Shown here one piece after another: positions 8,045 to 64,000 of a stretch of 64,000 nt of DNA. The stretch is from a virus. The stretch covers positions 1 through 64,000 of the IMG/VR virus record IMGVR_UViG_3300046694_000136. One strand, written 5' to 3'. The notes under the pieces are model-generated. The model was not told the DNA's origin. It was given only the letters and a program-made list of their open reading frames with translations, and did no database searches. Position 1 is the stretch's first letter. The number at the start of each line of letters is the position of its first letter. The position numbers were made by a program, and so were the translations under genes.

Positions 8045-10873
8045 TTAACTGAAGATAGAAAAGACCCCAATAGGGGAACGTGGTTTGAGCGGAAAGGTGT
8101 ATTCTTCGTCCTGACTGATTTGATACATTTCAGTCCCGGCTACGTCACCGAAGATGTTGTGATCGTTCTCCTTGGTGAGGAGTGCATCCACTTGCTCTCT
8201 CGACCATTCCATGATGTTGATGCTTCGAGTGGTGATGTTGAGTTTATCTCCGGTATCCAAGTTCAGCAGTTTGAAGAAGCACGGCGAGTCTTGGCCGACC
8301 CGTACTGTACGAGCAACAATCTGTTTCATCTCATGTTCACGGAACGGAGAGTCAAGCAGAATGGTCAAGTTAGCCATGACCAACGGGTACCCTTCTTTGA
8401 GCGACTGAATCACTGCAACCAAAGGGTTAACACGAGGGTTATCCCGGAAGCGATCGATGTTAGCGTCTCGCTCTTTGGAGTTCTCTCCGTATACCGTGAT
8501 TGGGTCAAAGCCTTCCTTGATTAAGTACTCGTTACACATTGCCATCGATTCAACGTATGAAGTGAAGATCAATGTCTTCTTCTCCACACTATTGATCATC
8601 TCGGGAATACCGGCGTGAGCAATGAGATCTTTGATGGCGTTGATACGAGCACGACCCAAGACGTTACCGAGCGCTTCACCACGGAGTTTAAGGCCGAGGT
8701 ACTTCACAGCAGACTTCACGTTACGGAACTCTTTCAAAGCGTTGCCTTTCAGATCCGCTTCAATACGTTCTTCAACTTGCTTACAGAACATGCTGTCAGC
8801 AGAGTCAGTGAAGGTGCTATACCCAACAGTCCTGAACCGGTGCACGATCTCCTTATAACGCAAGAGATCTCCCATAGCGCGAGGGTCTTTACGGTTGGCT
8901 TGTTCGTACGACAGAATCACTTCGTTGTAGAACGCTAAGAACTCCGGCATGTGTCTGGTGTAGAAATCAATCCGCTCGCTGATATAGATCTGCATCTGCA
9001 AACGAATAGCGTCCAGCGTGTACTGATCGCCGTTAGGGATCTTCACGTTAACCAGTTCAACCGGCGGAGCGTCAGGTATTCCTACCAAGTCGCCAATGGT
9101 GAACTTACTTCGGCCAATACGCATAGCCAGCAGATCAGTCATTGCAGGACGGTTCTTACCGTACGACGCCAAGAAGGTATCACGAACTTTCCCTTTGAAG
9201 AAGCGGTCGATCAGACAGAGGACTGGATAGATCTCACTACCCATCGCTTTCAGCGGGGTGCCCGACATTGGCAAGTAGTGCCCGAAGCACTTGGTATCAG
9301 CCCAATCAATCAATCTCCTTGTTCGGGCAGCCTTCATCTCGTTGAAGTTGTGACACTCGTCGATGATGAGTTTACACTCTCCCTTATGCTTCTTGTTGAG
9401 CTCTATCAGGAACTTCTGAAGCTGAGCACCTGCACCGGACATCATGTAGTCATAATGCACGATGTAGTAGTCGTAACCTTCCGTAGGGAGAGTCCCTAGA
9501 AGACTCGTCCAGACCTTTGGAGCCTCTTTGTAGTGCAGAGGTAGTTCCGTTACCCAAACCTTGTTAACGATGTTCATAGGGCACAGGACGACCGTAGGTG
9601 CGTCGTTAAGCAGATGACTCCATGCAATCGACGTAAAGGTGTTGTGAGTAACGACGTAATCATCTACAACGTACAGACTGTCCTCACTGTCGATTGAGAT
9701 ACACAGGGTCTCTTCTGACTCACGTTGTTCATAGCTCACGATATCCAATCGCAGAGCTTTATTGTCAGGACCGTCCATATCCACGAAGTACTGCGCAAGC
9801 ACGTCTGAATCACGATGCTTGAAGCTAACCTCGTAACGGTTCCCGGTCTTAACCGGAGGATGGGCAATACCACCTGTGCTCCACATCAGTCGTCTGAAGT
9901 TCTCTGCGGCCACAGCGCAACCTGTGTAGAAATAGAGTCCCTCGTCATCAACCTTGAGCGATCCTTGCCAGATCATTTCCTTGATCAGGTCGAAACGGTT
10001 CTGGTATGAAAGTTCTAATACTGACTCATCAATACTTTGTCCACTCGTAAAGAGATCCTGTGCCAGTTGGACTATGTTTGAATATACAGAGCGGTGCGTA
10101 GCGCCATCAATCTTTGTAACCAGAGGGATGGAGTACTTGAAGTCGTCGAAGTGGTTGATGATGTCCTGAGTCGTAGTAACCTGAGGTCCCACAGCGTGAT
10201 CATCATGAGTCTCAACAACTTCCCACTGGTGATCTGGGTGAGAGTCAGCAGTCCGCCCATCGGCAAAGGTGAAGCGATAGACAGCAGTAACACCTTGCGG
10301 GTAGATTCCTACTATCGTTGCTATTCTACCGTTAGGAGTGATGACTTTCCCACCTTCCTTCAAATCCCCTAAACGGGTCCAGCCACCCGGTGTCTTCACT
10401 CGGGTACTAAGCGGCATGGCTTTACCGCTACCGGCCTTGGCATCCAACAGCAACCCATCCAAATGGTAACTGTAGGTAATGACTGGATACTGTTCGAGGA
10501 ATTCCAGTTGTTTAGGGAATGGGGTGGTCTTGAACGCCTTCAACCGTTTCATGTCGAATGGCTTGCCGGACATATTAATAGTGTCCTTAACCCAAGTGTT
10601 CAGCTCGATCTGTTCCTTGAGTTCGTTAAGCTTACGACGATTACTCCGGAGGTTCTTGATTTTCAAGAGTGCTATCAAGATATTCCGCAATTCCAGCAAG
10701 TAAAACTTCTGTAGTTTTACCGTGTCCCAAGTTTCTCGCTTTACCTGATGCTTTGTAATCAGAGAAGTGTTGTAGAACTTCTCAATGTCTTTGGCCAAAT
10801 CATAGTAGGACACCCCCATGATTTGAACCATCTCCCCTAGATCTTTAATGCTGACAGAAAACAAATTAAACAT
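8045..10873 (-). CDS. SF2/SNF2-like helicase interrupted by an intein (942 aa precursor)
   Basis: Leftward ATG 10871-10873 with AAAGGG upstream. The mature extein (682 aa after splicing) has superfamily 2 motifs: Walker A AGSGK-T split by the intein (K151 | T412), Walker B DECH (D505-H508), motif III MSGTP, and a motif VI-like QIVARTVRVGQ (R855). The DECH box and ending resemble SNF2/RAD54-type DNA translocases. It probably acts in phage DNA replication, recombination or transcription remodelling. Residues 152-411 are the intein, described separately, so the ATPase site is broken until splicing. The N-terminal 115 residues are helical and specific to the phage. Divergent from the gene at 10900, with only 26 bases between. 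Confidence 0.9.
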   Translation of the reverse strand: MFNLFSVSIKDLGEMVQIMGVSYYDLAKDIEKFYNTSLITKHQVKRETWDTVKLQKFYLLELRNILIALLKIKNLRSNRRKLNELKEQIELNTWVKDTINMSGKPFDMKRLKAFKTTPFPKQLEFLEQYPVITYSYHLDGLLLDAKAGSGKAMPLSTRVKTPGGWTRLGDLKEGGKVITPNGRIATIVGIYPQGVTAVYRFTFADGRTADSHPDHQWEVVETHDDHAVGPQVTTTQDIINHFDDFKYSIPLVTKIDGATHRSVYSNIVQLAQDLFTSGQSIDESVLELSYQNRFDLIKEMIWQGSLKVDDEGLYFYTGCAVAAENFRRLMWSTGGIAHPPVKTGNRYEVSFKHRDSDVLAQYFVDMDGPDNKALRLDIVSYEQRESEETLCISIDSEDSLYVVDDYVVTHNTFTSIAWSHLLNDAPTVVLCPMNIVNKVWVTELPLHYKEAPKVWTSLLGTLPTEGYDYYIVHYDYMMSGAGAQLQKFLIELNKKHKGECKLIIDECHNFNEMKAARTRRLIDWADTKCFGHYLPMSGTPLKAMGSEIYPVLCLIDRFFKGKVRDTFLASYGKNRPAMTDLLAMRIGRSKFTIGDLVGIPDAPPVELVNVKIPNGDQYTLDAIRLQMQIYISERIDFYTRHMPEFLAFYNEVILSYEQANRKDPRAMGDLLRYKEIVHRFRTVGYSTFTDSADSMFCKQVEERIEADLKGNALKEFRNVKSAVKYLGLKLRGEALGNVLGRARINAIKDLIAHAGIPEMINSVEKKTLIFTSYVESMAMCNEYLIKEGFDPITVYGENSKERDANIDRFRDNPRVNPLVAVIQSLKEGYPLVMANLTILLDSPFREHEMKQIVARTVRVGQDSPCFFKLLNLDTGDKLNITTRSINIMEWSREQVDALLTKENDHNIFGDVAGTEMYQISQDEEYTFPLKPRSPIGVFSIFS
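9641..10420 (-). mobile_element. Class 3-type intein in the helicase Walker A motif (260 aa)
   Basis: Precursor residues A152-N411 separate GSGK from T. Visible intein features: N-terminal block AMPLSTRVKTPGGWTRLGDL, then VYPQG-like GIYPQG, block B with H64 and W66 (intein numbering, SHPDHQW), block F with C240 (TLCISIDS), and the end VVTHN with T258, H259, N260 followed by Thr. Ala at position 1 cannot start the usual N-S shift. W66, C240 and T258 match the WCT set of class 3 inteins, where the block F Cys acts first. Precursor residues 290-337 look like a decayed second half of a LAGLIDADG endonuclease, with no catalytic Asp. Confidence 0.9.
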
Positions 10874-60810: not shown

Positions 60811-63800
60811 ATGTCTACTGAAACAGATGAAGACTATAATCGGTTATTAGAGTTTGCTACCAAAGTCAAGAATTACCTTGGGGTTACCAATCTCACCAAG
60901 AAGTTAGTAGACGACAAGCGCCTCCGTATCGACTCGGAAGCGCGCAGTGAAGAAGAAACCTTGATGGCGCATTTCAAGGAAGACAGTTTGTGGGGTATCA
61001 AAACCGCACGCTTCCTGAAAGACTTCCATCTGTACAAAGCTGCGCCGGACATGGACACGAAGAACGAGTCCTTTCTGCGTACAGCAGAGATCTTCCGGTT
61101 ACAGGGGATCAAGAACTATTACTTTATCCTTCAGCTGAATAACCCGATGTTGAAAGGGGTGGATCCTCACGCTCCTGATTTGACAGATCTTCAGAAGACC
61201 ATGATCGCTAAGGAGTCCAAAGAGAACTTCTGGTATTTCCTGCGAGAAGTGTGTCGGATTAAAGGCGGTATGCCGTTCTTGGCTAACCGCGGTAACGTCA
61301 GTTTCATGTGGTCTTATCTGAACCACGTTACCACGCACATGATCATGCCTCGTCAGCAAGGCAAGCCGCAACCTGACAGCAGCGAGATCCGTGTTATCCC
61401 TGATGACCCAGCAACCGCCAAGTCTGCTGACTTCTGGAAGAAGATGGGTCACATGAAGGTCGGTGACGTGGTCATGGATCAGAAGGGTGAACCTGCCAAC
61501 GTGATTGGTGTTCACCCTCAGGGTAAGATCCGGGTCTACCGTATTACTGGTAGTGACGGTCGTTCTACTGATGCAGGGGTTGGTCACCTGTGGACCATGA
61601 AGAACTCGCTGGACAGCATCAATGATCGTGGCCTGTGGAGTGAGTACACCACGGCTGACATGATTCACTTGTTGAAGCAGAAAGCTGTTCTGCAATTCCC
61701 ACTGGTAGAACCAGAACTGGGTGTTAAGCGAGATCATGCAATCGATCCATACGTCATGGGTTTGATGGCTACGGCCAGAAACACCAACGGTGGTCTTCAG
61801 TTCAATGTCCTCAACGATGCGCAAGCTAACTACGTTGAAGCTAACCTGCCTAAGTACACCCGTCTGACTAAAGGTAAGGGTGAATGGACCTTTGCTCGTG
61901 ATGACGGTAACCCGATTACGTTCGATAAAGAAGTAGGACTTCCCGCTGCCTACTTGGAAGGGGCTCTGGAAGACCGTATAAGCCTCCTGCAAGCGTTCTG
62001 TGACAACCGGGGTATCATTGGCGATAAGAACGTCTACATCGCTGTAAACCGTGCTATCGGAGCTCAGCTGAAATATCTGGTACGTGGGTTGGGCGGTACT
62101 GCTGCTAACAAAGGCAACGGTATCGTCATTACACTGCCGGAAACCATCCCTTACTTCAAGACCCGTGAACAGGAACGTCCGGTTAATGAGGTGAATGCTC
62201 TGTTCGTTAAGTCGATCAAGTATCTGTGGGAAGAGAAGTCTACCTGCATTGAGATTGACTCTTCGGAACACTTGTACGTTACCGATGACTTCATGGTGAC
62301 CCACAACACGGTGTCGGTTCAGGTCATTAACTTCTGGCTGACCTACATCATGGGTCGAGGGTATACATCTCACCTCATTACCCTGAAGAGTGATAACCGG
62401 GCTCAGTTCGTCAACGCCATTAAGACGATCCGTAGCAGTATTCCTAAGTTCTTGGTTAACTCGACCTATAAGGACAAGGACGCTGGTACATCGTTAACGT
62501 ATAAAGCGTTTGGTGAGGATCAGGTTAATACCCTGTACATCAACGTTCCGCAACAAGGGGCTGACGCAGCAGGCGACTTGGCACGTGGTCTGACAGTAGG
62601 TTCTGGTTGGTACGACGAATCAGCGTACATCAAGTACATCGACTTGATCATCGACGGTTCTGGTCCTTCCATGCTAACCGAGATGGCTGTATGTCGTTCT
62701 AAAGGCCTGCCACACGGGATCAGTCACATCACAACACCGAACACAACGCTGCACCCAAGTGGTCAGTTCATGTTCAAACGTTTGATGGACTCTACCGAAT
62801 GGCGAGAGAAGTTCTTTGACTGCTTCAGCGAGTCCGATCTGCATGACAAGCTGATTAAAGCGTCTCCAGTCGAAACCACGTCTCCTAAACTGGCGATGGT
62901 GTATAACTACCTCCAGCTGGGTAAAGACAAGGACTGGGTGAAGTGGGTTATCGACGACCTTAACTTGAGTAAAGCTAAGGCCAAGATCGACTTGCTGTTG
63001 ATGTGGGTGGAAGACGGGGAGAACCGGTTGTTTGATGACCAGACCCGTGAAGCCATTAACAACATGAAGCGGGACGTAGTGTGGAGCAAAGAGTACAAGG
63101 ACTTTAACCTTTACATGGACTTCTTTGTTACACAGAACGAACTGGCTGAAATGTGCGCGAAGTCTTACAACGACTTCTTCTTGATCGGTTGCGATACTTC
63201 CTCCGCTATCAACAAGGACGCCTGCACCATCGTAATCCGCAGTATGAAGACTGGTAAGGTCGTTGGGGTAGGTCGATACGCTCTTACCTATCTGGACCAC
63301 GTAGCGAGCATCTTGGTGGACTTGCTGGAATGCATTCAGAACAGTATCCTGATCCCTGAACGCAACTATGCTCACCACATGATCGATACGCTCCTGATCA
63401 CGCTGCCTGCTAAGGGTATGGATCCATTCACCCGGATCTACAACACGGTCTACAACGACACGGTTGGTCACGAGAAGGAGTACGAAGAAGTTAGACGTAC
63501 TGGGTTCGCTACTCGTAGCAAGAACTTCTACCTGAAGTTCAAGCAGCACTTTGGGTTCCTCACCACAGGTACTTCTCGTAAGACACTTTACGGGTTGATC
63601 ATCGAAGCGGTAGGGAACACGGGTTATGGGTTGGCGTACAGCAAGCTTGCGGATGAACTGATTAACCTGCGGCTTAAGGCAGACCGGATTGACCACGACT
63701 CTAAGCAACACGATGACTTGGTTATTTCGTGGCTGTTGAGTTACTGGTTCATTAAGCTGGGGATGAACAAATCGCTATACGGGATTCCTCCTGGACTGGC

Positions 63801-64000
63801 ATTGACTGAAACCCGTAACTTGATGAACGAAGCAGCAGGTGTGAAGACTCCAGAAACGGAACCTCACATTATCCACTTGCTCCAGAAAGTCAGAGCGAAG
63901 ATCACTACACTTACGGATGAGTTGTTGTCTACGAACGATAACCTGCTGGCCTTGCGTCTGGAAGCAGAGATTCGGAAGCTGACGAAGTACCTCCCACCTG
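60811..64000 (+). CDS. terL: Large terminase subunit interrupted by an intein (partial, 1063 codons in window)
   Basis: ATG 60811 with TCAAGGAATTCGTAT upstream; the frame is open to the window end, so the C-terminus is missing. Motor motifs: Walker A PRQQGK-T split by the intein (K185 | T500) and Walker B GWYDE (D602-E603). Nuclease motifs: GCDTSS (D795) and HDD (D968-D969), in the RNase H-like order of packaging nucleases. It packages phage DNA into proheads and cuts the concatemer. Equivalent to phiKZ gp25. Residues 186-499 are intein, so the packaging ATPase needs splicing. The remaining extein in view is about 749 residues. Confidence 0.93.
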   Translation, partial: MSTETDEDYNRLLEFATKVKNYLGVTNLTKKLVDDKRLRIDSEARSEEETLMAHFKEDSLWGIKTARFLKDFHLYKAAPDMDTKNESFLRTAEIFRLQGIKNYYFILQLNNPMLKGVDPHAPDLTDLQKTMIAKESKENFWYFLREVCRIKGGMPFLANRGNVSFMWSYLNHVTTHMIMPRQQGKPQPDSSEIRVIPDDPATAKSADFWKKMGHMKVGDVVMDQKGEPANVIGVHPQGKIRVYRITGSDGRSTDAGVGHLWTMKNSLDSINDRGLWSEYTTADMIHLLKQKAVLQFPLVEPELGVKRDHAIDPYVMGLMATARNTNGGLQFNVLNDAQANYVEANLPKYTRLTKGKGEWTFARDDGNPITFDKEVGLPAAYLEGALEDRISLLQAFCDNRGIIGDKNVYIAVNRAIGAQLKYLVRGLGGTAANKGNGIVITLPETIPYFKTREQERPVNEVNALFVKSIKYLWEEKSTCIEIDSSEHLYVTDDFMVTHNTVSVQVINFWLTYIMGRGYTSHLITLKSDNRAQFVNAIKTIRSSIPKFLVNSTYKDKDAGTSLTYKAFGEDQVNTLYINVPQQGADAAGDLARGLTVGSGWYDESAYIKYIDLIIDGSGPSMLTEMAVCRSKGLPHGISHITTPNTTLHPSGQFMFKRLMDSTEWREKFFDCFSESDLHDKLIKASPVETTSPKLAMVYNYLQLGKDKDWVKWVIDDLNLSKAKAKIDLLLMWVEDGENRLFDDQTREAINNMKRDVVWSKEYKDFNLYMDFFVTQNELAEMCAKSYNDFFLIGCDTSSAINKDACTIVIRSMKTGKVVGVGRYALTYLDHVASILVDLLECIQNSILIPERNYAHHMIDTLLITLPAKGMDPFTRIYNTVYNDTVGHEKEYEEVRRTGFATRSKNFYLKFKQHFGFLTTGTSRKTLYGLIIEAVGNTGYGLAYSKLADELINLRLKADRIDHDSKQHDDLVISWLLSYWFIKLGMNKSLYGIPPGLALTETRNLMNEAAGVKTPETEPHIIHLLQKVRAKITTLTDELLSTNDNLLALRLEAEIRKLTKYLPP
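61366..62307 (+). mobile_element. Class 3-type intein in the terminase Walker A motif (314 aa)
   Basis: Precursor residues P186-N499. Position 1 would be proline if insertion is exactly at GK|T, so no standard first nucleophile exists. Block B has H74 and W76 (VGHLW), block F C294 (STCIEIDS), and the end MVTHN gives T312-H313-N314 followed by Thr. This again is the W-C-T set of class 3 inteins. The middle has two degenerate LAGLIDADG-like segments, IDPYVMGLMATARNTNGG and LLQAFCDNRG, where the catalytic Asp positions are Thr/Asn and Arg. The endonuclease is therefore probably inactive. Confidence 0.9.

Follow-up and report, generated by a model that had tools for sequence, protein, structure and literature searches.

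Class 3 protein splicing is an established mechanism for which structures have been solved, and the inteins that use it are defined by Trp B:12, Cys F:4 and Thr G:5 and by the lack of an N-terminal nucleophile (PMC3196547), with the first branched intermediate arising when Cys F:4 attacks the upstream peptide bond (PMC4031507). Terminase inteins of this class have been described in mycobacteriophages, namely TerL1-c (Bethlehem gp10) and TerL1-e (Gaia gp2) (PMC5050341). The intein presented here likewise resides in a terminase, but TerL1-c and TerL1-e both lie outside the P-loop. The inteins of Violet and Gaia furthermore carry the LAGLIDADG motifs GDG and DSDG/DTDG, unlike the MATA and CDNRG found here, and that of Bethlehem differs in that it cuts the intein-free allele (PMC5050341). 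An insertion at GK|T is known from mycobacteriophage terminases as TerL1-a (PMC5050341), a likeness of site. The class 3 inteins of mycobacterial DnaB (6bs8, 6rix, 6riy) resemble the present one in the fold of the splicing domain and in the sequence around block B, but they are mini-inteins without an endonuclease and their host protein is a helicase. Finally, the VMA intein of P. horikoshii (PhoVMA, 7qst) has also retained a LAGLIDADG domain without the active-site acids, but it is an archaeal class 1 intein (Cys1) and can splice without its dead domain (PMC8966425).

The closest relatives are the inteins in the terminases of Pseudomonas phage EL (gp11, YP_418044), the Erwinia phages RisingSun and Joad and the Shewanella phage FishSpeaker, which share the insertion site, the class 3 residues and dead LAGLIDADG motifs and are orthologous by tree. 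The EL intein is only 45% identical to the one presented here, and position 1 is Q in EL, L in RisingSun and M in FishSpeaker as opposed to P. In the public records of this EL lineage, the products are named terminase or helicase with the intein unmentioned, and inteins are mentioned nowhere in the RisingSun paper.

The window, i.e. the whole stretch of 64,000 nucleotides that was analysed, represents bases 1-64000 of a viral contig of 234,503 bp. Judged by terminase identities, this contig is related to Pseudomonas phage EL: its terminase shares 65% identity with EL gp11 across the full length, 55% with the proteins of RisingSun and Joad and 54% with that of FishSpeaker. The terminase is encoded by a single, unbroken frame, which is still open at the window end and comprises 1101 aa in the full contig (Table 1). 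Its assignment as large subunit is based on the match of the N-extein to the phrog_2 terminase large subunit (E 2.3e-33), on TerL homology to EL, RisingSun and VP4B, and on the Walker A motif at the junction. The insert corresponds to terminase residues 186-499 and separates ...PRQQGK from TVSV..., as had been proposed in the preliminary description. Intein-free terminases (Vibrio phages VP4B and pTD1, the Kc263 group and the loci L054-L059) read PRQQGKTV or PRQSGKTV without a gap, and hence fix both boundaries; none of them differs at GK|T. A second, intein-free terminase was not found in the contig, in which the gene is single-copy.

Table 1. Positions of the terminase gene, its intein and the residues and domains discussed in the text, numbered from the first base of the window.
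Feature	Position	Strand	Basis
Terminase large subunit precursor (EL-like jumbo phage)	60811..63999	+	ORF; runs beyond window end
N-extein, ending in Walker A ...PRQQGK	60811..61365	+	Intein-free homologues
Class 3 intein, 314 aa (P1 ... T312-H313-N314)	61366..62307	+	Homologue boundaries, invariant residues, AlphaFold, PDB fold matches
Block B, H74-L75-W76: putative catalytic His and WCT Trp	61585..61593	+	H and W invariant 42/42; codons counted from 61366
LAGLIDADG homing-endonuclease domain (residues ~120-270), both catalytic acids lost: motif C MATA, motif E CDNRG	61723..62175	+	
C294, predicted block F nucleophile (WCT Cys)	62245..62247	+	Invariant 42/42; codon coordinates computed
Block G, T312-H313-N314: WCT Thr, penultimate His, terminal Asn	62299..62307	+	Invariant 42/42
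T+1 of C-extein: predicted second nucleophile and Walker A Thr	62308..62310	+	Invariant 42/42
C-extein (remaining ATPase and nuclease domains)	62308..63999	+	Homology to EL terminase, intein-free homologues

For comparison, viral contigs were scanned with the peptide patterns TEWREx[FY]F and IDLL[LM]MW, and since both lie in the C-extein, the scan is blind to the insert. It returned 46 terminase loci, and the scan loci and phage records together provided 42 distinct intein-bearing terminases for alignment. The insert has P at residue 1, H at 74, W at 76, C at 294, T at 312, H at 313 and N at 314. Apart from the first, all of these, namely the WCT residues W76, C294 and T312, the block B His and the terminal His-Asn, are invariant in 42/42 sequences, as is T+1, and Cys, Ser or Thr never occurs at position 1. 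The seven invariant residues (six in the insert plus T+1) and the alignment of the whole insert with that of EL (E = 5e-81) are far beyond chance. Invariant H, W, C, T, H, N and T+1 combined with a free position 1 represent the class 3 signature, so that the preliminary description had been correct in placing the six insert residues at class 3 positions and in reading the element as a class 3 intein with a block F Cys in the terminase P-loop. The predicted structure (AlphaFold, 25 aligned inteins; mean pLDDT 92.6) has a HINT fold, for which Foldseek ranks the class 3 DnaB inteins 6riy, 6rix and 6bs8 above other mini-inteins, and a phmmer search against PDB sequences returned, in this order, 6riz (gp41-1 engineered with WCT), 6bs8, 6qaz, 6rix and 6riy. 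In Pfam and NCBIfam, no family scored above cut-off for the window intein.

The preliminary description had further singled out Pro1 as a distinguishing oddity, and this part did not hold. Among the 42 aligned sequences, only the window copy and the closely related L027 have Pro1, yet ten different residues occupy position 1 (Y 11, A 7, M 6, F 5, L 4, E 4, P 2, Q 1, N 1, D 1), and Pro1 is not special because the class 3 nucleophile is not position 1; we therefore rejected it as a mechanistic novelty. The term "non-standard splicing element" is accurate with respect to the class-wide absence of a position-1 nucleophile, but does not stem from Pro as such. A non-nucleophilic first residue, reportedly Pro, is also ascribed to the class 3 prototype of Tori et al. 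2010. Another intein starting with Pro (PLALNTEV...) is that of Mycobacterium phage Violet gp10, whose site reads SQDQ-TKNT in empty homologues and appears to be the TerL1-c site of Bethlehem, the intein of which spliced quickly in a reporter (PMC5050341).

By analogy with characterised class 3 inteins, C294, helped by H74 and T312, would directly attack the K185-P1 peptide bond and accept the N-extein in thioester linkage, forming the block F branch. After transfer of the N-extein to T+1, N314 would cyclise with the assistance of H313, and the exteins would join, thereby restoring PRQQGKT. Splicing very probably takes place in the native terminase, since the contig holds a single terminase and since its exteins are strongly constrained.

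What the preliminary description had missed is the LAGLIDADG domain and its catalytic loss. In the predicted structure, blocks B and F are separated by a LAGLIDADG fold formed by the central ~150 residues (about 120-270), and full LAGLIDADG-bearing inteins (PI-SceI, TliVMA and PhoVMA) are matched by Foldseek, with I-DmoI being weaker. The outgroup terminase inteins of Miami, PS1, N1M2 and AerS_266 show the motifs GDG and DTDG and score above the cut-off for Pfam LAGLIDADG_3, a family that the same search did not detect in the inteins of the window, EL, RisingSun and L020. Within the EL lineage, the motif E acid is absent in 33/33 copies and the motif C acid in 32/33, and an intact acid pair, as expected for an active endonuclease, occurs in none. 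The sole copy with a motif C acid is the shortened L043. In the part of the literature covered, no published description of such a lineage-wide endonuclease loss was found.

The intein is present in every EL-lineage terminase found by the extein-based scan. Viral contigs were also searched for an intein-free allele from the lineage by means of an empty-site DNA pattern, and none of the 23 stretches recovered belongs to the lineage, the nearest being that of pTD1 with 60% identity in the N-flank. The 33 EL-lineage copies, 28 of which entered the trees once near-identical ones had been removed, form a clade with 100/100 support in the extein tree as well as in the intein tree. The subclades of the two trees match, except for poorly supported deep branching and the arrangement inside small groups, and across the lineage intein identity correlates with extein identity (Spearman 0.86). 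As the trees agree on the supported groups, independent acquisition inside the lineage was rejected. Extein identity within the lineage falls to 60%, which implies that the dead-endonuclease state is old. From these data we infer that the intein no longer homes and is vertically inherited and fixed. Overall, we consider it highly probable that the terminase contains a splicing-competent class 3 intein that is fixed and immobile, and whose former endonuclease probably acts as a splicing scaffold.

The question arises why a dead domain would be kept. Across residues 120-270, dN/dS was below 1 in 10/10 close pairs, and the upper bootstrap limit on pN/pS did not exceed 0.66, although the dN/dS values are approximate because several pairs are close to saturation in dS. 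The exteins of these pairs are under strong purifying selection. The dead endonuclease hence evolves under purifying selection, and its predicted fold is retained. Endonuclease degeneration and a mutualism of splicing and endonuclease domains are published concepts, and the constraint is in line with the latter (PMC8966425). It suggests that the domain is kept because it aids the folding or the work of the splicing domain; the constraint could also have its source in protein stability or in a dead domain that binds DNA or protein.

One could alternatively imagine that the intein splices while the dead endonuclease has no scaffold role and is baggage in slow decay towards a mini-intein, as predicted by the homing-cycle model. 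The dead-domain dN/dS is usually above that of the C-terminal splicing block and the exteins in the close pairs (about 0.37 for L040/L047), one copy has suffered a partial deletion, and PhoVMA provides a precedent for a dead domain that splicing can do without (PMC8966425). Yet the ratio stays well below 1 in all ten pairs, the intein measures 301-319 aa in 32/33 copies despite the extein divergence, and the predicted fold is confident throughout, so that we regard decay without a role as somewhat unlikely. The deletion itself (L043:4056-4871, 272 aa) is the only one in a dead endonuclease of the lineage and possibly represents a natural step towards a mini-intein. At the other end, the whole jumbo-phage lineage could have become dependent on the immobile class 3 intein, with the dead endonuclease recruited and essential to splicing or its regulation, i.e. 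a domesticated element and not a decaying parasite; in this far-reaching form, the proposal appears doubtful to us.

It could also be speculated that the intein is a conditional switch that keeps the motor inactive until a signal such as redox at C294, a metal or infection timing arrives. The insertion breaks up the ATP-binding loop, and a response to stress is reported for DnaB inteins of mycobacteria (PMC6195587), among which 6bs8 is class 3 by its PDB title. Moreover, 24/33 EL-lineage copies have an extra Cys two residues ahead of C294, and the resulting CxC at residues 292-294 is a possible redox element. The window copy, however, has Ser at this position (residue 292, 62239-62241), and 5/5 reporter-tested mycobacteriophage terminase inteins spliced quickly (PMC5050341), which makes a switch improbable. 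That the intein does not splice at all, with a terminase that is non-functional or works as an unspliced precursor or in cleaved pieces, is very unlikely, as the failure to splice of Arth_1007, a class 3-type intein without the block F Cys (PMC3196547), is set against fully intact class 3 residues in the window intein, a sole terminase in the contig and strong purifying selection on the exteins.

The window holds one further class 3-type intein (260 aa; 9641-10420, minus strand) within an ORF for a SNF2-like helicase (8045-10873, minus strand). It also occupies a P-loop site (GSGK|A...THN|T) and has H64, W66 and C239, with Ala at position 1. The EL homologue of this helicase aligns over its full length, insert included, whereas the RisingSun helicase lacks the insert, as indicated by a two-piece match covering 70% and a CDS of 2049 bp. 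Several intein-bearing terminases and helicases bear the RefSeq label 'DarB-like antirestriction' (NC_070950, NC_048821, NC_070998 and NC_007623 (gp166)), which is possibly an annotation error that spread via shared intein sequence. In addition, an antisense ORF of 424 aa (61099-62373, minus strand) covers the entire terminase intein; it is probably due to chance since the open frame is not conserved in relatives.

Overall, the finding is incremental in that the mechanism class and the host-protein site were already known. The lineage-wide retention of a 'dead' endonuclease nevertheless represents useful comparative material for intein biology, as it provides about 33 vertically inherited class 3 inteins at the same site, with endonucleases that are inactivated yet constrained, beside outgroups with apparently intact endonucleases or empty sites. 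Such a set permits tests of whether dead homing endonucleases persist through splicing dependence and of whether an essential phage enzyme can come to include an intein permanently.
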